From Candidatus Phaeomarinobacter ectocarpi (lineage in GTDB: Bacteria > Pseudomonadota > Alphaproteobacteria > CGMCC-115125), in the NCBI RefSeq assembly GCF_000689395.1, contig NZ_HG966617.1:568753-632752 (forward strand): a stretch of DNA of 64,000 bases. Direction: 5' to 3'. The number at the start of each line of letters is the position of its first letter. Within the stretch, counting starts at the first letter, position 1. A program made the translations under genes and the position numbers. The notes under the pieces are model-generated. The model ran no database searches, had not been told where the DNA came from, and saw nothing but the letters and a program-made list of their open reading frames with translations. Positions 1,545 through 60,008 of this stretch are shown here, in pieces.

Positions 1545-2321
1545 CTAGTCGGCGCTTATCGCCGGGAACTGGCCAGCGCCCGATGCCATGCGCGGCACGC
1601 GGGCGTGCCGGCCCGGCTGGCGTCGCGCATAGTCTCCGACCACGGCCCGAGCGGGATCAAACTGGTCCAGCAGCGCTGCAATGAACAGGCTGACGCCAAG
1701 CAGCTCAAACCCCTCTTCAATGCTGATGGACAGCGCGTAGAAAGCGGTTGCCCGGTAGCCCTGATAATCCAGCCAGCCGCCGACCATTTCCATGCCCAGC
1801 GCGCCCGCTACAAACAGCCCGCCAAACGCTGCAAACTTCCAGAACAGGCTCGGTGGCAATCGCTTGAGTAGCGGCAGCAGCGCCAGTCCAAGTCCCAGGA
1901 CGCAGACAAATGCCGGTACGACCCAGGCGTAAAAAAGAACACCGCCGAACCCGAAGGCACTGCGCAGGGGGGCAATGACGCCCTCGTGGAAACTGGCCGC
2001 TTCGTCGATCGACAACGCCATGAAGACAAGGGCCAGAACCAGCCACAGGCGCCAAAGAATGTCCCCGGCACGCCAGGCCTTTGCACCAAGTGTGTAGAGC
2101 AGCAGCGACGCAATGAGCATCATTGATGAGCCCCACCATGCGGGCACGCTGTTCTCGGCATCCAGATTGAACTGCCGCAGGTCCTGCACCACGGTGTCCA
2201 CACCCACATTGATCACAAATGCCTCGCGCGCGAGCCCGGCAGCCAGGACGGCAAGCGAGCCTGCGAAGATCAGATATTTGGCAAATTGTGGGTCGAGGCG
2301 CATGGCGCTATTCCGGTTCAT
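1545..2321 (-). CDS. Multi-spanning membrane protein of unknown function
   Basis: This 258-residue protein has about six or seven hydrophobic segments, so it is an inner-membrane protein. Two acidic motifs lie at or near membrane segments: SIDEAASFHE at about residues 103-112 and SISIEEGFELLG near 200. Paired acidic and histidine residues of this kind occur in several uncharacterised bacterial membrane families and could bind a metal or proton, but I cannot assign a function. The C-terminal 35 residues are hydrophilic and basic. An alternative start at 2303 (MRLDPQ) has a slightly better upstream GGAA. It is divergent from the HAD-UbiA gene, so a link with that envelope module is possible. 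Confidence 0.7.
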   Translation of the reverse strand: MNRNSAMRLDPQFAKYLIFAGSLAVLAAGLAREAFVINVGVDTVVQDLRQFNLDAENSVPAWWGSSMMLIASLLLYTLGAKAWRAGDILWRLWLVLALVFMALSIDEAASFHEGVIAPLRSAFGFGGVLFYAWVVPAFVCVLGLGLALLPLLKRLPPSLFWKFAAFGGLFVAGALGMEMVGGWLDYQGYRATAFYALSISIEEGFELLGVSLFIAALLDQFDPARAVVGDYARRQPGRHARVPRMASGAGQFPAISAD

Positions 2322-2476: not shown

Positions 2477-3976
2477 ATGCCTGCCATACATGATGTACAA
2501 CGCGCGCCTGAAACGGCGGAAAAGACCGGAATAACGGACAAATCGGCGGAATTGCCGCTGGTTCTGGATCTCGACGGCGCGCTCATCCGAACGGACATTC
2601 TGTTCGAGACATTCATTGCTTTCGTGCGGCAAAACCCCTTGCGCCTGTTTCAGGTTGCAGCATGGGTGCTGCGCGGCCGTGCCATTTTGAAACAGAAGCT
2701 GGCTGAAAAAGCCGTGCTGGATGTGGAAAGCCTGCCGGCAACCGAAGACCTTGTGAGTTTTGCCGCGCGCGAAGCCGCCATGGGCCGCCAGGTGCATCTG
2801 GCGACCGCGACAGACAGTCTGGTGGCTCACCGGATCAAGAAGCGGTTTCCGTTTATCAGTCGCGTCTTTGCAAGCGATGGGGCTACCAATCTCAAGGCAA
2901 AGGCCAAGGCGGCCGTGCTGGTAGATGCCTTCCCGGATGGCTTTGCCTATGCGGGCGACAGCCGAGCGGATGTGCCTGTATGGAAAGCCGCGCAGGACTC
3001 CCTTGTGGTGAACCCGACACCCGGCGTTCTGCGCGCCGCGCGCGCCGTGCGCGAACCTGTGGAAGTGTTCGCGCGTCCCAAGGCCGGTTTCAAATTCGCC
3101 GCCAAGGTATTGCGTCTGCACCAATGGGCCAAGAACGGGCTGATCTTTGCGCCGCTCCTGCTGGGCGGATTGATGTTCAACGTTGAGGCCTGGACCCTGG
3201 CAGCAGCAGGCTTCCTGGCGCTGTCACTCCTGGCGTCGGCCACCTATCTGCTGAATGACCTGTTCGATCTGGCAGACGATCGCCGTCACTGGTCCAAGCG
3301 CAACCGGCCCCTGGCGTCCGGTCGATTGAAGATTGCCCATGCGCTGGTGCTCATTCCAGCGGGCATGATCGCCGCCTATGCCATTGCCGCGTGGATCGGT
3401 CCGGTCGCCATCGGCTTCCTGACGCTCTATCTGGCGTTGACCCTGGCCTACTCTTTCAGTCTCAAGAAGATCGAGCTGCTGGACGCTGCGGTGCTGGCCA
3501 CATTGTTCACGGTGCGCCTTGGCTTCGGCGTGGCGCTGGCCGGCGTCGTCTTCTCGCCATGGCTGCTGGTGTTTTCCATGTTCCTGTTCCTGTCGTTGTC
3601 CTTTGCCAAGCGCCATGTGGAAGTCACCCGCATGGAAGCCCATGGCCGCACCAAAGCAGCCGGTCGTGGCTACAAGGCAGGCGATGGTCCCATGGTCGCC
3701 ATGATCGGTGCAGCCTCGGGTCTTGCCTCCGTGCAGGTGCTGGTGATGTACGTCATGAATGAAGCCTATTCCGCAGGCGCCTATGCGCAGCCACTGATGC
3801 TGTGGGCGGCGCCGCCTATCTTGTTCCTCTGGGTCGCGCGTATCTGGCTGCTGGCCCAGCGTGGCGAGCTTGATGACGATCCGGTCGCCTTTGCCGTCAA
3901 GGATGGCCCCAGCCTGTTGCTCGGGGCCGTGCTCGGCATGGTATTCGCCGCAGCACTTCTTGGCTCTCCGCTCTAA
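2477..3976 (+). CDS. HAD phosphatase-UbiA prenyltransferase fusion, DPPR-synthase-like
   Basis: A 499-residue two-domain enzyme. Residues 25-200 form a HAD hydrolase: DLDGAL at 31-36 (nucleophile Asp31, though Ala replaces the usual Thr of DxDGT), LATATD as motif II, and YAGDSRADVPVW as motif IV. Residues about 210-499 are a UbiA-type membrane prenyltransferase with nine or so helices, the first Asp-rich motif NDLFDLADDRRH near 259 and the downstream YSFSLKKIELLD. The C-terminal domain resembles 5-phosphoribosyl transferases that load polyprenyl phosphate more than quinone-pathway UbiA. By analogy with mycobacterial Rv3806c/Rv3807c, the fused phosphatase would remove the 5-phosphate from the product. 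The start has AGGAAG upstream. The GtrA gene follows 12 bases later, suggesting an operon. Confidence 0.88.
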   Translation: MPAIHDVQRAPETAEKTGITDKSAELPLVLDLDGALIRTDILFETFIAFVRQNPLRLFQVAAWVLRGRAILKQKLAEKAVLDVESLPATEDLVSFAAREAAMGRQVHLATATDSLVAHRIKKRFPFISRVFASDGATNLKAKAKAAVLVDAFPDGFAYAGDSRADVPVWKAAQDSLVVNPTPGVLRAARAVREPVEVFARPKAGFKFAAKVLRLHQWAKNGLIFAPLLLGGLMFNVEAWTLAAAGFLALSLLASATYLLNDLFDLADDRRHWSKRNRPLASGRLKIAHALVLIPAGMIAAYAIAAWIGPVAIGFLTLYLALTLAYSFSLKKIELLDAAVLATLFTVRLGFGVALAGVVFSPWLLVFSMFLFLSLSFAKRHVEVTRMEAHGRTKAAGRGYKAGDGPMVAMIGAASGLASVQVLVMYVMNEAYSAGAYAQPLMLWAAPPILFLWVARIWLLAQRGELDDDPVAFAVKDGPSLLLGAVLGMVFAAALLGSPL

Positions 3977-3988
3977 AGGTCGGAGACA

Positions 3989-4474
3989 ATGAGTGACACA
4001 CATCCAAGCGAAACGCCTCTAAGCGAAAGACGTCTAAGCGAGACACATCGCGTATTGCGTTTCCTGCTGGTGGGCAGCCTTGCAGCCGCCGTCAACTGGC
4101 TGGCGCGCATTGCCCTGTCGGCTGTCTTCGCACCGGCCCTCAGTTTCGAGATGGCCGTGCTGATTGCCTATGCCATTGGCATGACCAGCGGTTTCCTGCT
4201 GTATCGCGCCTATGTGTTTCCCGATGCGGGCCTGCCCATGGCGGTGCAGCTGCGCCGGTTCATCGCCGTCAATCTGGTGAGTGCTGTTGAAGTCTGGCTG
4301 GTGGCTGTCGTGCTGTTGCGCATGGTTGTTCCAGCGCTCGGCATTGGTCTCGACTACACGCCGGTCGCAGAAGCCATCGCCCATGGCATCGCCATCGCCA
4401 TTGGCGCGGCCACAAGCTATGTGGGCCACAAGTTGCTGACATTCAGATCAGCGCAGGGTGTTGAACCTGCCTAG
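3989..4474 (+). CDS. GtrA family membrane protein
   Basis: A 161-residue protein with four transmembrane helices, matching GtrA/DPMS-like proteins thought to flip or help move polyprenyl-phosphate sugars across the inner membrane. RFLLVGSLAAAVNW at about 25-38 and the C-terminal YVGHKLLTFR are typical. It follows the HAD-UbiA gene by 12 bases, so the pair probably makes and translocates a lipid-linked sugar, as mycobacterial UbiA and the GtrA protein Rv3789 do for decaprenyl-phospho-arabinose. The first 20 residues are a hydrophilic tail encoded by three imperfect 15-base repeats (4004-4048) giving PSETP/LSERR/LSETH. Its stop codon overlaps the stop of the convergent gene in a CTAG tetranucleotide. 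Confidence 0.9.
   Translation: MSDTHPSETPLSERRLSETHRVLRFLLVGSLAAAVNWLARIALSAVFAPALSFEMAVLIAYAIGMTSGFLLYRAYVFPDAGLPMAVQLRRFIAVNLVSAVEVWLVAVVLLRMVVPALGIGLDYTPVAEAIAHGIAIAIGAATSYVGHKLLTFRSAQGVEPA
4004..4048 (+). repeat. Three imperfect 15-bp tandem repeats within the gtrA 5' end
   Basis: Units CCAAGCGAAACGCCT, CTAAGCGAAAGACGT and CTAAGCGAGACACAT follow one another exactly every 15 bases. They stay in frame and encode a five-residue repeat in the cytoplasmic N-terminal tail. The remaining protein is ordinary GtrA, so the repeat looks like a local slippage expansion. Confidence 0.8.
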
Positions 4475-5793
4475 GCTGTTCCGGAAATCCTGAGCGCGGC
4501 CATGGTGACGAGATTGAGCACCATGGCGTATCCCACCAGCACTGCAAGAATGCCGCGCCACTCGGTCCGCACCGTGGGGGCCAGCAACAGCATGGCAATG
4601 GGCAACCAGTCCAGCGCATAGCGCTGCACATTGTACTGGCTGAAGCCGTTGGAGTGATAAAACAGCGTGATGCCGCAAATAGCGGCTGCCGTGGCCAGAC
4701 CGATGAATGCAATGCGGTGCCGCTGCACAAACACAAGCAGCAGTAGGAACGGGCTGGCCGCCAGAATGGACGTGCCGAAACTGTCCACACCCATGATCTT
4801 GGTCGTGTAGGTGCCGCCAAAATCAATGTGCAGTCCCTGGAAGAACATATGGACCACGTTGAACAGGAAGTACTCCTGCGCAAACAGGCCAAGATCATTG
4901 ATCCGCAGGGTGATGACGTTCTCTTCGCCCGGCAGGATATTGGCGGCGATATAGCCGTAGCCCGTATCAAGCGGCGCGCCAAAGCGCACATAATTATAGA
5001 GGCAGTAAACGCCGACGGCGCCCAGGATCGGGACGCCGAGCTTGAGCGCCTGCGCGATCCGTTCCTTGTTGATGCGCAGCAGCGGCTCATCATCATGGAG
5101 CAGCAGCGCAAAAAGCAGCGGCGCATAGAGAATGCTCATCTGCCGCGACAGGAATGCCATGCCGATCATGATGCCGGCCAGCCACGCATTGCGGCGTTCG
5201 ATGGTGGCCCACAGCGCCATGGACACAAAGAAGAAGCCCACAAGCTGCGCAAAGAACCACACTCGGTCACCGCGCAACGCCACAAAATAAAGCGGTGTCG
5301 CAAAGACCAGCGCCAGCAACAAAATCAGCGTCCGCGTCTGATCAGGGCCAGCCGCTGCAAACAGCCGCGACCAGATAAAGCCGATGGCCAGCAACAGTGC
5401 CATGGAAAGGGGCATGAAGTGTTTGAAGTCAGCGCCCTGACCACTCAGCGCCACAAAGGGCAACGCCACGGCAGCGGGGGCGGGCGGGAAGATGACGTAT
5501 GTCTTACCCTCAAAGGTCGCGCAGTCGCCGTCAAAGCAGGTGTCGGAATGCAGCTGGCCGCTCAGCCATGAATCCACCAGCACCGCATAGGAGTTGGTGC
5601 CTGCTTCTTCGCTCAGCATGCGCATGGCAAAGCCTGCGGCCAGGGCACAGGCAAGCAGCACCAGCACGGAAATCAGCAGCCAGTAGCGCGGCGCGGAGAC
5701 AGCCGGCGGCATATAGCCCTGCGCCTGCGGGTCCGCAGGGGAGGCGTCCGCGTCCGGTGACGGCGCGTCTGGAGATGTGTCGGCGGTGGTCAT
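4471..5793 (-). CDS. Polytopic membrane protein, glycosyltransferase (GT-C)-like
   Basis: A 440-residue inner-membrane protein with a 40-residue Asp/Pro/Ala-rich cytoplasmic head and about ten to eleven transmembrane helices. A loop after the first helix contains GTNSYAVLVDSWLSGQLH followed by CFDGDCATFEGKTYVIFPP, with acidic residues where polyprenyl-phosphate-sugar-using GT-C enzymes keep their catalytic Asp. The tail has YNVQRYALDWLP, common in this class. Function as an envelope mannosyl/arabinosyl-type transferase is an inference from topology and from the neighbouring HAD-UbiA and GtrA genes. ATG 5791-5793 was chosen; a longer open frame upstream has no membrane or family features. Confidence 0.72.
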   Translation of the reverse strand: MTTADTSPDAPSPDADASPADPQAQGYMPPAVSAPRYWLLISVLVLLACALAAGFAMRMLSEEAGTNSYAVLVDSWLSGQLHSDTCFDGDCATFEGKTYVIFPPAPAAVALPFVALSGQGADFKHFMPLSMALLLAIGFIWSRLFAAAGPDQTRTLILLLALVFATPLYFVALRGDRVWFFAQLVGFFFVSMALWATIERRNAWLAGIMIGMAFLSRQMSILYAPLLFALLLHDDEPLLRINKERIAQALKLGVPILGAVGVYCLYNYVRFGAPLDTGYGYIAANILPGEENVITLRINDLGLFAQEYFLFNVVHMFFQGLHIDFGGTYTTKIMGVDSFGTSILAASPFLLLLVFVQRHRIAFIGLATAAAICGITLFYHSNGFSQYNVQRYALDWLPIAMLLLAPTVRTEWRGILAVLVGYAMVLNLVTMAALRISGTA

Positions 5794-5995: not shown

Positions 5996-7168
5996 ATGCC
6001 CATCACGCCAGACGCAGCCGCCACCCTGACCCCCAACGCGCACATGCTTGGCCAGCAGGGGTCTGCGCAGGCTCTCAACACCCCCGCGCTGGTGCTGGAT
6101 CTGGATGCCTTCGACCGCAACCTCACCCGCATGATGGACCACTGCAAGGCCTCAGGCCTTGGGCTGAGGCCCCACGCCAAGACCCACAAGTCGGTTGAAA
6201 TTGCCCGCCGTCAGCTGGCGGCAGGCGCCGTGGGTGTGTGCGTCGCCAAACTCGGCGAGGCGGAGGTCATGGGCGAGGGCGGCATTGATAGCGTGCTGAT
6301 CACCTCACCGGTTGTGAAGGAAGACGGCATCCGCCGCGTCATGGACCTCAATGGCCGCATGGCGGACCTGATCGTGACCGTGGACAATCTCGACAACGCC
6401 CAGGCCCTGGCGCGCGCAGCGTCCCCGGAGCAAGGCGGCAGCCGTCCCCTGAAGGTGATTGTCGATTTGGACGTGGGCCTGCATCGCACTGGCATTGCGC
6501 CCGGCGAAGGCGCGGCGGAACTGGCAGAATTCGTGGCCGCCAGTCCGGGGCTTAAATTCATGGGGCTGCAGGCCTATGCAGGCCATCTGATGCATGTCGA
6601 AGACTACGCAGAGCGCCGGGAAAAATCCCTCGACGCCATGAAACAGCTTGGCGACATGCGCGACATGCTCCGTGAGCGGAGTATTTCCTGTGATATTCTC
6701 ACCGGCGGCGGCACCGGATCATGGGACATTGATCCCGAGGCGGATATCCTGACGGACCTGCAGGCCGGCAGCTACCTGTTCATGGATACGGAATACAACG
6801 CCGTGCACCAGAAGAGCGGTCCCGAACAGGCCTTTGAAACATCTCTCACGATCCAGACCACCGTTGTGAGCGCCAACACGCCAGGCATTGCCACCACCGA
6901 CGCCGGCATCAAGAGCATGGCCACCGACCAGAAGACAATCGCCATCGCGTCCGGCACCCCGGAAGGCACGGCCTACTTCCTGTTCGGCGACGAGCAGGGC
7001 GGCCTGGCGTTTCCCGACAAGGACACCGGCCTGGCGCCGGGCAGCGTCCTCAACCTCGAGACCCCCCACTGCGACCCCACCGTGAACCTCTATGACTGCT
7101 ACCACGTGGTCAAAGACGGCACGCTGGTAGACATCTGGCCCGTCAGCACCCGCGGGCGATCTGCGTAG
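5996..7168 (+). CDS. DSD1 family PLP enzyme, D-threonine-aldolase-like
   Basis: A 390-residue PLP enzyme of fold type III. LNTPALVLDLDAFDRN opens the alanine-racemase-like barrel and RPHAKTHKS carries the probable PLP lysine (Lys62). The C-terminal domain has PHCDPTVNLYDCYHVV: the His-x-Asp arrangement fits the Mn2+ site of bacterial D-threonine aldolase, whereas D-serine dehydratases have His-x-Cys. The expected reaction is cleavage of D-threonine or another D-3-hydroxy amino acid to glycine and an aldehyde in the cytoplasm. AGGA lies seven bases before the ATG. The phosphofructokinase pair begins about 70 bases downstream on the same strand; no direct metabolic link is evident. Exact substrate uncertain. 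Confidence 0.88.
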   Translation: MPITPDAAATLTPNAHMLGQQGSAQALNTPALVLDLDAFDRNLTRMMDHCKASGLGLRPHAKTHKSVEIARRQLAAGAVGVCVAKLGEAEVMGEGGIDSVLITSPVVKEDGIRRVMDLNGRMADLIVTVDNLDNAQALARAASPEQGGSRPLKVIVDLDVGLHRTGIAPGEGAAELAEFVAASPGLKFMGLQAYAGHLMHVEDYAERREKSLDAMKQLGDMRDMLRERSISCDILTGGGTGSWDIDPEADILTDLQAGSYLFMDTEYNAVHQKSGPEQAFETSLTIQTTVVSANTPGIATTDAGIKSMATDQKTIAIASGTPEGTAYFLFGDEQGGLAFPDKDTGLAPGSVLNLETPHCDPTVNLYDCYHVVKDGTLVDIWPVSTRGRSA

Positions 7169-7235
7169 TCGGGCCGTCACACGACGTGGCTAGTATCGAG
7201 TGCATGAGCTTGGCACCCAGAACAAAAGAGACGCG

Positions 7236-8399
7236 ATGCGTATCGGAATACTGACAGGCGGTGGCGATGTGCCCGGGTTGAACCCGGCGATCCAGCAGGT
7301 GACGCGCGAGGCGTGCGCGCGCGGCTGGGAGGTGGTGGGCATCCGCAATGGCTGGGCCGGCCTGCTTGGGGTCAATCCCGATGATGAGAGCAGCCAGGCT
7401 GCCCGCCTGATGACACTGGACCCGCAAACGACGCGAGGCATAGACCGGTTTGGCGGCACGGTGCTGCACACGGCCAGGCTGCACCCGGACACGGTGCGTG
7501 AAGCGGACATGCCGGAATTCCTGCAGGCCACGGCGTCCTATGACGAGCGCCGCTGGGCCGACATGACACCGCACATCCTGCGGGTCATTGAGTATCTGAA
7601 GCTCGATGCGCTCATTCCCATTGGGGGCGATGGCACGTTGAGCTATGCCGCACGGCTGGGCGAAGAAGGCGTGCCCGTGCTCGCCATCCCCAAGACCATG
7701 GACAATGATGTTCAGGGGACGGATGTCTGCATCGGGTTTCCCACGGCCATCACCCGGTCCATCCATACGGTGCATGACATTCGCAGCACGGCCTCTGCAG
7801 AAGAAAGCATCGGCGTCATTGAATTGATGGGGCGGCACTCGGGTGAAACCGCGCTGATGGCGGGGCATCTTGGCTCCGCAGACCGGACCGCCATTGCCGA
7901 AGTGCCCGTGGACGTGGCGGCCCTATCTGAACTGCTGTGGAATGATCTGTCGGCGGGCGGTGAGGCGGGCGCTGTCATGGTGATCTCGGAAGGTGCGCAG
8001 CTTGTGGGCATTGATGCGGACACAGCCTCGACGCCAGCGCGCACGGACAAGTTTGGCAACACGCGTCTGGGCGGCGTCGGCGAAATTCTGGCGCGCGACC
8101 TGACCCAGCGACTGGGCGTGCCTGCGTTCTCTCTTCAACTGGCCTATCTCATGCGCGCGGGCGCGCCAGTCTCCCAGGACAGCATGATCGCGCGGGCGTT
8201 CGGCACCCTGGCGGTGGAGCTGATTGCCGCCGGTCAGACCGGGCGCATGACGGCGTTGCAGGAGGGGACATACACCTCTGTGCCCATTTCACGCACTGGC
8301 GAGGGCGCGGCACAGGTCGATGTGGATCGTTACTATGACGCCAAGACCTTCAAACCCCGCATCACGCGACCGGGCATTGCCCAGTCGTTGAGCTTTTAG
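7236..8399 (+). CDS. 6-phosphofructokinase, paralogue 1 (GGDGT type)
   Basis: A 387-residue group A phosphofructokinase. Seen motifs are MRIGILTGGGDVPGLNPAIQ at the start, IGGDGTLSYA for the phosphoryl-donor site, PKTMDND with the catalytic base Asp, ELMGRHSGETAL and ISEGA. At the position equivalent to E. coli Gly104 it has Gly, typical of ATP users, but Lys replaces Gly124 as in PPi-dependent enzymes, so the donor must be tested. I chose ATG 7236 because it matches the start of the adjacent paralogue; an earlier in-frame ATG at 7203 adds 11 residues. The second phosphofructokinase follows after 16 bases, an obvious tandem duplication and operon. Confidence 0.92.
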   Translation: MRIGILTGGGDVPGLNPAIQQVTREACARGWEVVGIRNGWAGLLGVNPDDESSQAARLMTLDPQTTRGIDRFGGTVLHTARLHPDTVREADMPEFLQATASYDERRWADMTPHILRVIEYLKLDALIPIGGDGTLSYAARLGEEGVPVLAIPKTMDNDVQGTDVCIGFPTAITRSIHTVHDIRSTASAEESIGVIELMGRHSGETALMAGHLGSADRTAIAEVPVDVAALSELLWNDLSAGGEAGAVMVISEGAQLVGIDADTASTPARTDKFGNTRLGGVGEILARDLTQRLGVPAFSLQLAYLMRAGAPVSQDSMIARAFGTLAVELIAAGQTGRMTALQEGTYTSVPISRTGEGAAQVDVDRYYDAKTFKPRITRPGIAQSLSF

Positions 8400-8415: not shown

Positions 8416-9513
8416 ATGCGTATTGGCGTTCTCACAGGCGGCGGCGATGTTCCCGGTCTCAACCCGGCGATCCAGACGATTACCCGTCAGGCGACGGATC
8501 TTGGCTGGGAAGTCATTGGCATCAGACGCGGCTGGCGCGGCCTGCTGGACTTTGATCTGGATGATCCGGAGGGATCCCTCGAGGCCTGCACCATGCCCCT
8601 GACCGCGACATCCGTGCGCGCCATTGACCGGCTCGGCAGCACGGTGCTGCATACCTCCCGCACCCACGTGGCAACCCTTGAAGCGGGTACGGCGCATATT
8701 CTTGAAGTGATCGCGCATCTCAACATCGACGCGCTGGTTCCCATTGGCGGTGTGGACACACTGGCTTATGCAGCGCAACTTCAGGCCCATGGCGTCCGGG
8801 TCAACACCATTCCCAAGACCATGGACAATGATGTGTTCGGCACCGACTACTGCATCGGGTTTTCAACCGCTGTCACACGCTCCGTCGATGCCATCAATGC
8901 CCTGCGGACACCGGCCGGCAGCCATGAGCGCGTCGGTATCATTGAGCTGTTCGGCCGCAAGTCCGGCGAGACAGCCCTGATGTCCGGCTACCTGGCGGAC
9001 GCGCCCCGCGTGCTGATTGCCGAAGTCCCCTTCGACATGGAGCGGCTGGCGGACATGTTGATGGCCGACAGGGCCGACAACCCCTCGAACTACACCATGG
9101 CCGTCATTTCCGAAGGCGCGCGCATCGAGGGCAGCGATGCGGTGGAGTATGGGGAGACGGATGCCTCCGGCCAGCGTCGTCTCGGCGGCATCAGCGACGT
9201 TGTGAGCGAAGAGTTCAAGCGGTTGACCGGCGCCGGCACGATTTCCCAGAAGCTCTCCTACCTCATGCGCACCGGCACGCCGGATGCGCTGGACACAATG
9301 GTGGCCCGCAGCATGGGCGCCATGGCCGTGCAGCATCTTGAACAGGGCCGCGACGGCCTGATGATTGCCGTGCGCGACGGGGCTTACCAAAGCGTGCCGG
9401 TGTCGACTTGTATCGAAGGACAACGCCGCGTGGACGTGGCTGCGCATTACGATGCAGACGCCTACCGGCCCAACATCCACAACATCAACACCAAGCCGAT
9501 GTTCCTTGGCTGA
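8416..9513 (+). CDS. 6-phosphofructokinase, paralogue 2 with altered donor site (GGVDT)
   Basis: A 365-residue paralogue of the preceding gene, colinear over its whole length. It shares MRIGVLTGGGDVPGLNPAIQ, PKTMDND and ISEGA. The donor motif reads IGGVDTLAYA: the Mg-binding Asp103 position is Val and the Gly104 position is Asp. Asp at 104 together with Lys at 124 is the signature of PPi-dependent enzymes, so this copy may use pyrophosphate, while the Val could reduce or change activity. ELFGRKSGETAL also has Phe for the substrate-contacting Met. A GGGGG-rich ribosome site precedes the ATG. The two enzymes could form a hetero-oligomer or act in opposite directions of glycolysis; that is inference. 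Confidence 0.9.
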   Translation: MRIGVLTGGGDVPGLNPAIQTITRQATDLGWEVIGIRRGWRGLLDFDLDDPEGSLEACTMPLTATSVRAIDRLGSTVLHTSRTHVATLEAGTAHILEVIAHLNIDALVPIGGVDTLAYAAQLQAHGVRVNTIPKTMDNDVFGTDYCIGFSTAVTRSVDAINALRTPAGSHERVGIIELFGRKSGETALMSGYLADAPRVLIAEVPFDMERLADMLMADRADNPSNYTMAVISEGARIEGSDAVEYGETDASGQRRLGGISDVVSEEFKRLTGAGTISQKLSYLMRTGTPDALDTMVARSMGAMAVQHLEQGRDGLMIAVRDGAYQSVPVSTCIEGQRRVDVAAHYDADAYRPNIHNINTKPMFLG

Positions 9514-59042: not shown

Positions 59043-60008
59043 TTACAGGGACGTGCCCGGCGTTCCGGCAAACAGGCAGGCCAGAATGATGATCCCGAAA
59101 TCCCGGTTGGACTTGAAGGCCGCCAGGCATTCCTCGGGGCGGTCCAGATCCGTATCGCGCACCTGCCGCATCAGATGGAAGCCGCCCATGAACAGCCCGG
59201 CAAAATAGACCCAGCCAATACCCGCAAAGACGCCTGCCAGCCCAAGGAAGACAAGTGTCAGCCCGTAAAAGCCCCACAGCCATGTCTTGGTGTTGGCCCC
59301 GAGCCGAAGGGCTGTGGATTTCACCCCGATCAGCGCATCGTCTTCCTTGTCCTGATGGGCATAGATCGTGTCATAGCCCAGCGTCCAGCAGATGCCGGCC
59401 AGATAGAGGAATATAGGTGCCAATGTGAGCGATCCGGTGACAGCCGCCCAGCCCATCAGTGCACCCCAGTTGATGGCAAGGCCCAAAAAGACCTGCGGCC
59501 ACCAGGTGAACCGCTTGGCAAATGGATAGATGGTGATCAGTGCCAGCGATGCCACGCCAAGCCCGATAGCAGCCCAGCTGAGCTGAATGAGAATGAGAAA
59601 GCCGATCAGCAGCAGCACGCCCAGAAAGATCAGCGCAGATGACCCACTAACCTGACCGGACGGAATGGGGCGGCTGGCCGTGCGCGCCACCTGCGCGTCG
59701 ATCTCCCGATCGGTGTAGTCGTTCCACACACAGCCCGCGCCCCGCATCACGAACGCGCCAACCAGAAACAGGCCGATCAGATAAAGGATCTCGGGGTAGA
59801 GCACATATTTCCCGACCTGCGGCGCGGCCAGAACAATGGCCCACGCGCCCGGCCAGAACAGCAGCCACGTGCCGATGGGCCGGTCGGCCCGCATCAACCG
59901 AAGATAGGGCCGCGTGCCCGCCGGCGCCCACCGGTCCACCCAGTTATCTGGAGCGGCATCGGCAACGCTCCCGGACTCGTCAGGCTCGTTATCTTGAGGA
60001 ACTGTCAT
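59043..60008 (-). CDS. ubiA: 4-hydroxybenzoate polyprenyltransferase
   Basis: A 321-residue membrane prenyltransferase attaching the polyprenyl tail to 4-hydroxybenzoate in ubiquinone synthesis. Both Asp-rich motifs are intact: GAGCVWNDYTDREIDAQVARTASRPIPSG and GYDTIYAHQDKEDDALIGVKSTALRLG. About eight or nine transmembrane helices follow a 40-residue acidic N-terminus. This is the true quinone-pathway UbiA, unlike the HAD-UbiA fusion at 2.5 kb. ATG 60006-60008 shares its CATG with a possible rsmE start on the other strand; alternative upstream starts exist. It forms the alphaproteobacterial ubiA-rsmE-gshA cluster. Confidence 0.96.
   Translation of the reverse strand: MTVPQDNEPDESGSVADAAPDNWVDRWAPAGTRPYLRLMRADRPIGTWLLFWPGAWAIVLAAPQVGKYVLYPEILYLIGLFLVGAFVMRGAGCVWNDYTDREIDAQVARTASRPIPSGQVSGSSALIFLGVLLLIGFLILIQLSWAAIGLGVASLALITIYPFAKRFTWWPQVFLGLAINWGALMGWAAVTGSLTLAPIFLYLAGICWTLGYDTIYAHQDKEDDALIGVKSTALRLGANTKTWLWGFYGLTLVFLGLAGVFAGIGWVYFAGLFMGGFHLMRQVRDTDLDRPEECLAAFKSNRDFGIIILACLFAGTPGTSL

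Follow-up and report, generated by a model that had tools for sequence, protein, structure and literature searches.

A HAD-UbiA fusion, a GtrA protein and a GT-C fold protein of Candidatus Phaeomarinobacter ectocarpi as a probable epimerase-free pentofuranose module

A stretch of 64,000 nucleotides from the genome of Candidatus Phaeomarinobacter ectocarpi (the window) carries at its left end, among metabolic and housekeeping genes, three genes whose products may together make and transfer a lipid-linked pentofuranose: a haloacid dehalogenase (HAD) phosphatase fused to a UbiA-type membrane enzyme, a GtrA family protein, and a convergent polytopic protein with a predicted GT-C (glycosyltransferase C) fold. 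An earlier account made from the letters of the window alone (the sequence-only reading) had proposed these genes as a module, and their coordinates and strands are confirmed. The genome consists of a single 3.4 Mb contig with a completeness rating of 100%. Of the named relatives found, a Candidatus Phaeomarinobacter bin is the nearest (93% over 100 residues), and the genus is a brown-alga associate according to the available text of PMC4110880. Below, L-numbers (e.g. L135) are locus labels of relatives, G465 is a genome label and L137 is the locus of G465. The features are listed with their counterparts in ORF15 of Citrobacter youngae, a published HAD-UbiA protein.

2477-3976, + strand: HAD-UbiA fusion, 499 amino acids, a predicted polyprenyl-phosphate phosphoribosyltransferase plus 5'-phosphatase (PPPRS/PRP); NF006088 at 593 bits, PDB 8j8j by sequence (2.8e-19) and by structure
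2537..3076, + strand: HAD phosphatase domain, about residues 21-200, from NF006088 coverage and SerB-like structural matches; the boundary is approximate and taken from the secondary structure of the model
2567..2575, + strand: HAD motif I, Asp31-Leu-Asp33 (DLDGA), corresponding to ORF15 D18 by motif position only
3089..3973, + strand: UbiA-type membrane phosphoribosyltransferase domain, about residues 205-499, from Pfam, NCBIfam, and PDB sequence and structural matches
3254..3280, + strand: Asp-rich loop N260 D261 D264 D268, invariant in 20 aligned sequences; by spacing ORF15 N247 D248 D251 D255
3611..3622, + strand: motif R379/E382 of the second cytoplasmic loop, unchanged in all 20 sequences; ORF15 R366/E369
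3989-4474, + strand: GtrA family small membrane protein, 161 amino acids, a candidate lipid-linked-sugar flippase; PF04138 at 52.5 bits
5793-4471, - strand: convergent polytopic protein of 440 amino acids with a GT-C fold in its predicted structure, a candidate pentofuranosyl (ribofuranosyl) transferase
5608..5610, - strand: Glu62 of the GT-C protein, invariant in 13 sequences and right after predicted helix 34-60, a candidate GT-C catalytic acid/base

The reading frames of the GtrA and GT-C genes share 4 bases at their 3' ends. For the latter, the longest open reading frame starts from a TTG at 6189, but relatives favour the ATG at 5793. As the same three genes recur in distant genomes, the set is not a chance arrangement.

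The fusion matches the 'UbiA family prenyltransferase' family NF006088/PRK08238 at 593 bits (cut-off 351) over residues 21-494, which takes in both halves, while Pfam reports UbiA alone (64 bits in the window scan, 66 in the genome scan). Its only PDB sequence matches are 8j8j and 8j8k, both decaprenyl-phosphate phosphoribosyltransferase. Of these, 8j8j is also the best structural match of the model (TM score 0.81 of the target; mean predicted local distance difference test score, pLDDT, 87.4), and 8j8k is among the best. Within NCBIfam, the DPPRS models score 132 and 121 bits, below the curated cut-offs of those stand-alone models, versus 27 bits for the ubiA_proteo model and 20 bits for that of heme O synthase. 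Sequence and model thus support the UbiA half as a phosphoribosyltransferase relative, closest to Rv3806c among UbiA enzymes, as the sequence-only reading had supposed.

That reading had also considered that the UbiA half might group with quinone or heme enzymes. The genome encodes two further UbiA proteins with 216 and 205 bits to Pfam UbiA, far above the fusion, one inside the window at about 59115-59861 (- strand) and the other just beyond its edge. Given these two genes, the scores and the structure, quinone or heme prenyltransferase identity was rejected. More broadly, the fusion belongs to the UbiA superfamily, as do the ordinary prenyltransferases for quinones, heme or other aromatics, but with scores and structure pointing to the phosphoribosyltransferase branch we consider such an identity extremely improbable. 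The peptide DDRRHWSK was set aside as a clade marker and not used as evidence, since the peptide itself was the search probe and its invariance in the probed loci is in part ascertainment. The NF006088 family is common, with 89 matching plasmid records; no phage-borne copy of the fusion was found among 50,697 phage records, and one phage example is mentioned in the available text of PMC11127046.

The closest published precedent is that of Kelly et al. 2024 (PMC11127046; here and below, as given in the available part of its text), who describe C. youngae ORF15 as a HAD domain (PRP) N-terminal to a UbiA domain (PPPRS). ORF15 turns farnesyl phosphate and phosphoribosyl pyrophosphate (PRPP) into farnesyl-P-ribofuranose, supplying a periplasmic GT-C enzyme. 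Its activity is abolished or cut on loss of four Asn/Asp residues, and its D18A variant accumulates the phosphorylated product with some activity retained. A one-polypeptide HAD-UbiA synthase/phosphatase is therefore already known and does not count as new. According to the same source, Rv3807c bears no relation to HAD phosphatases, so the equivalence drawn earlier between Rv3807c and the HAD half is not supported. The residues of the fusion were mapped to ORF15 by motif and spacing rather than by aligning the ORF15 sequence; on that mapping the counterparts of its Asn/Asp residues (N260, D261, D264, D268) are conserved, which, with the nucleophile D31 present, favours a like role for the three genes.

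No Pfam HAD family matches the fusion at E 0.001. Four HAD motifs are nevertheless readable, with D31, D33, T110, K144 and D161 kept, and the predicted structure of this half resembles SerB-type HAD phosphatases. The sequence-only reading had raised the possibility that Ala in place of Thr in motif I inactivates the domain. The nucleophile Asp and the acid/base Asp are both present (D31, D33), and the Thr position varies, being Ala in L016, Ser in L014, DLDHA in L017 and Thr in the congener L031. As Thr is not a catalytic Asp and varies among relatives, the argument was dropped. The HAD half could still be inactive, with a separate phosphatase acting or phosphoribose itself being transferred. 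L023, L057 and L058 have a degenerate motif I, the alignment covers the UbiA half only in two genomes (L138, L148), and the ORF15 D18A variant kept some activity (PMC11127046). For the window protein, with its five kept residues and SerB-like fold, we find this quite unlikely.

The neighbouring GtrA protein, correctly recognised in the sequence-only reading, carries the PF04138 GtrA/DPMS transmembrane domain (cut-off 26.1 bits) and is presumably similar to Rv3789. GtrA adjoins HAD-UbiA in 16 of 19 related loci.

The convergent protein matches nothing in Pfam or NCBIfam at E 0.001, and its relatives reach PMT_2/GT87 only below cut-off. A PDB sequence profile search with its alignment gave no match at E 0.1, and Foldseek on its model (pLDDT 80.5) gave no E-value below 0.001, the best being 1.7e-3. 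In structural alignment, the model matches ArnT at Z 19.0 over 324 residues, AftB at 14.1, AftD at 13.6 and EmbC at 12.5; since helical bundles can reach about Z 13 through arrangement alone, as the aligner itself notes, it is the ArnT-level matches that carry weight. The 50 structural matches listed are GT-C fold proteins, glycosylphosphatidylinositol transamidase subunit U among them. Judged by its model, the protein has a GT-C fold and is predicted to be a glycosyltransferase, in line with the earlier comparison to a polyprenyl-sugar transferase, and the position of Glu62 after the first helix makes it, by GT-C precedent, a candidate catalytic acid/base. The family is unnamed by Pfam and NCBIfam.

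The association of this GT-C protein with the fusion was surveyed in the order of Methylopila turkensis (297 genomes; GT-C profile at E 1e-10, NF006088 above cut-off). The GT-C gene occurs in 27 genomes and HAD-UbiA in 72, with both in 26 (Fisher p 4e-17, a value that ignores shared ancestry). Fusion and GT-C lie within 6 kb in 18 of these 26 and are unlinked in eight. The one GT-C genome lacking HAD-UbiA, G465, also has the weakest GT-C match (286 bits). GT-C stands beside the fusion in 10 of 19 related loci. Eleven of 14 fetched stretches carry all three genes, L135 and L136 having no GtrA and L137 GT-C only; these stretches do not test the association because they were chosen for carrying GT-C. 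A plasmid of Devosia neptuniae has fusion, GtrA and GT-C in one run, a self-contained cassette in which the GT-C protein is 49% identical and annotated hypothetical. Across 241 genomes sampled class-wide, this GT-C was not found outside the genus of the window, bar two matches near E 1e-3.

The GT-C protein might instead stand outside the module and use another lipid-linked donor. It is encoded on the opposite strand, its gene is away from the fusion in eight of the 26 genomes, the homologue in G465, though weak, occurs without HAD-UbiA, and a distant homologue on a Flammeovirgaceae plasmid has no annotated UbiA neighbour. Against this, the two genes co-occur in 26 of 27 genomes, the eight unlinked cases included, and GT-C is co-directional in L135, L136, L144, L147 and L149, making an independent role rather improbable. 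The Flammeovirgaceae homologue (L152:5911-7122; 30% identical) comes after a gene of the O-antigen ligase family, and none of its annotated neighbours is UbiA.

With regard to the sugar, DprE1/E2 homologues accompany arabinofuranose (Araf) systems (PMC11127046). The sequence-only reading had called the product decaprenylphosphoryl-arabinose (DPA)-like while allowing that the sugar could stay ribose. In the genome of the window, six FAD_binding_4 genes were found, which by NCBIfam are four GlcD-like, one FAD-linked lactone-oxidase-like and one MurB. No DprE1 was found there, the best score to NF053785 being 76 bits as protein and 55 in a direct genome scan, and no DprE2 either (best 64 bits). 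For calibration, the DprE1 genes that adjoin HAD-UbiA reach 363 bits in Methylovirgula and 369 in Rhizobium tumorigenes, and DprE2-like genes reach 184 bits in Methylosinus and 168 in R. tumorigenes. As these calibrators themselves miss the curated cut-offs (500 for DprE1, 250 for DprE2), the score gap and not the cut-off decides absence. The term DPA-like is therefore unsupported and, as far as the genes tell, the best guess for the product sugar is ribose rather than arabinose.

In the genomes of 18 named relatives, some of them metagenome bins and possibly incomplete, DprE1 occurs only in Methylosinus sporium (620 bits) and Methylovirgula (988 bits), the other 16 scoring at most 54, and in none of the nine with an adjacent GT-C. 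Across the class-wide sample, 18 genomes carry the fusion above cut-off, 13 of them with DprE1 (at least 250 bits) and five without. Three of those five belong to the genus of the window, and both congeners in the sample lack DprE1 (best E 9.9e-7). A tree of 33 fusions places that of the window in a group of 20 (support 98/96), 18 of which come without DprE1, and the presence or absence of DprE1 needs at least 3-4 changes on that tree. In the order survey, DprE1 is missing from 22 of the 26 fusion genomes with GT-C versus 11 of the 46 without it (p 1e-6). Lipid-linked D-arabinofuranose made through DprE1/DprE2 encoded elsewhere would suit the majority of HAD-UbiA genomes, as DprE1 occurs in most of them (13/18 in the class sample, 39/72 in the order survey), often next door. 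For the window it is very unlikely, being largely refuted by the calibrated absence of both enzymes from a complete genome and of DprE1 from congeners.

Another pentofuranose, such as xylofuranose or a modified sugar, might be made from polyprenyl-P-ribose by an unlinked short-chain dehydrogenase/reductase (SDR) epimerase, like ORF13 in C. youngae O2. The genome holds 41 SDR-like matches, an extended SDR lies beside the same GT-C in L135 and L136, and ORF12, the C. youngae transferase, is promiscuous for donors (PMC11127046). As no epimerase lies at the window locus and none was recognised in most relatives with the cassette, we regard this as unlikely, if the least so of the alternatives to ribose.

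Some relatives show additions to the gene set. In L135:4431-11523 and L136:3986-11412, the cluster runs fusion, GT-C, extended SDR, class III aminotransferase, DprE1, with no DprE2 match and no GtrA; speculatively, DprE1 might there yield a 2-keto pentose open to amination, with a lipid-linked amino-pentofuranose as the product. In Hansschlegelia (L016:9959-11974, L019:10115-12142, L023:9917-12022), GtrA and GT-C flank an AT3-SGNH acyltransferase, which suggests that the added sugar may be acylated; that of L016 is weakly like mycobacterial SucT (132 bits, cut-off 1275).

In the wider surroundings, the upstream gene at 1545-2321 (- strand) encodes a 258-residue membrane protein with no family match in Pfam or NCBIfam and, among the loci examined, restricted to the genus; on both grounds it was left out of the module. 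Farther along, two tandem phosphofructokinase-like genes (7200-8399 and 8416-9513, + strand) are 47% identical to each other, with IGGDGT in the first and IGGVDT in the second. An Rfam search gave no match.

Taken together, the co-occurrence of PPPRS, flippase candidate and GT-C in the window and its relatives, along with the homology and the models, indicates that the three genes probably form a variant of the three-component pentofuranose system already published, one that uses GtrA and has no epimerase. By homology to ORF15, whose activity was demonstrated, we infer that the UbiA half would move 5-phosphoribose from PRPP to polyprenyl (undecaprenyl) phosphate at the cytoplasmic face, and that the HAD half of the same polypeptide would strip the 5'-phosphate to give polyprenyl-P-ribofuranose. 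GtrA, from its family and gene position, may then help this lipid reach the periplasmic face, where the convergent GT-C, from its predicted fold and co-occurrence, would hand ribofuranose to an envelope acceptor.

Several observations weigh against this proposal, besides the shared ancestry behind the Fisher values. The available text of PMC11127046 notes that the flippase function of such proteins has not been directly shown, and L135 and L136 have no GtrA at all, an extended-SDR epimerase adjoining their GT-C. An unlinked epimerase of another kind is possible among the SDR-like matches of the window's genome. In L023, L057 and L058, the nucleophile Asp is gone while the UbiA motifs are intact, so the phosphatase half appears dispensable in some lineages. 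Finally, 46 of 72 HAD-UbiA genomes do without this GT-C, and DprE1 is present in 4 of 26 genomes with both genes (within about 5 kb in L135 and L136); GT-C is therefore not tied to ribose everywhere.

If the proposal holds, a pathway proved in one enterobacterium extends to many alphaproteobacteria, among them relatives of a marine algal associate, methylotrophs and root-nodule isolates. It names a conserved, uncharacterised GT-C as a likely pentofuranosyltransferase, predicts envelope ribose rather than arabinose, and corrects the idea of the fused synthase/phosphatase as new; its interest lies in what the acceptor is and to which family the GT-C belongs. A bolder conjecture, which we hold as doubtful, is that a cassette for ribofuranosylation, without an epimerase and dependent on GtrA, has become fixed in one alphaproteobacterial lineage. 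Its transferase would then be the founding member of a new GT-C family and would modify a conserved component of the envelope instead of a variable O antigen. To the same core, relatives would add DprE1/DprE2, an extended SDR, a class III aminotransferase or an acyltransferase for other pentofuranoses, possibly an amino-pentofuranose.

Among known systems, the mycobacterial DPA pathway (Rv3806c, Rv3807c, DprE1/DprE2, Rv3789, Emb/Aft) shares with the window a UbiA enzyme homologous to its Rv3806c, a GtrA-type protein and the GT-C fold. Unlike that pathway, the window has a fused HAD domain instead of Rv3807c, no DprE1/DprE2, and a transferase unrecognisable by sequence as Emb/Aft. Pilin arabinosylation in Pseudomonas paraeruginosa (PSPA7_6245-6251, TfpW) likewise places a PPPRS in a Gram-negative bacterium, but that enzyme has no HAD domain and the sugar is D-Araf. 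The Azorhizobium noeCHOP genes are alphaproteobacterial and are likened to the mycobacterial pathway in the available text of PMC2443382; they differ in arabinose as sugar and a Nod factor as acceptor. A ribose-only, GtrA-using version with a different GT-C appears unstudied: our literature search found no paper on this alphaproteobacterial cassette, with a prior mention possible among the further candidate systems of Figs S11 and S12 of PMC11127046. In the available text of that paper, the C. youngae O1/O2 components are the PPPRS ORF15, the MATE flippase ORF14, the GT136 enzyme ORF12 and, in O2, the epimerase ORF13. The window differs in that its flippase candidate is GtrA and not MATE (MATE genes elsewhere in the genome were not searched), its GT-C has no Pfam or NCBIfam family name, and it is alphaproteobacterial, with no O-antigen genes recognised among annotated neighbours. 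Like C. youngae, it encodes a single protein with a HAD domain ahead of a UbiA-type PPPRS, a flippase candidate and a GT-C, and, like the O1 (ribose) version, the locus does so without an epimerase.

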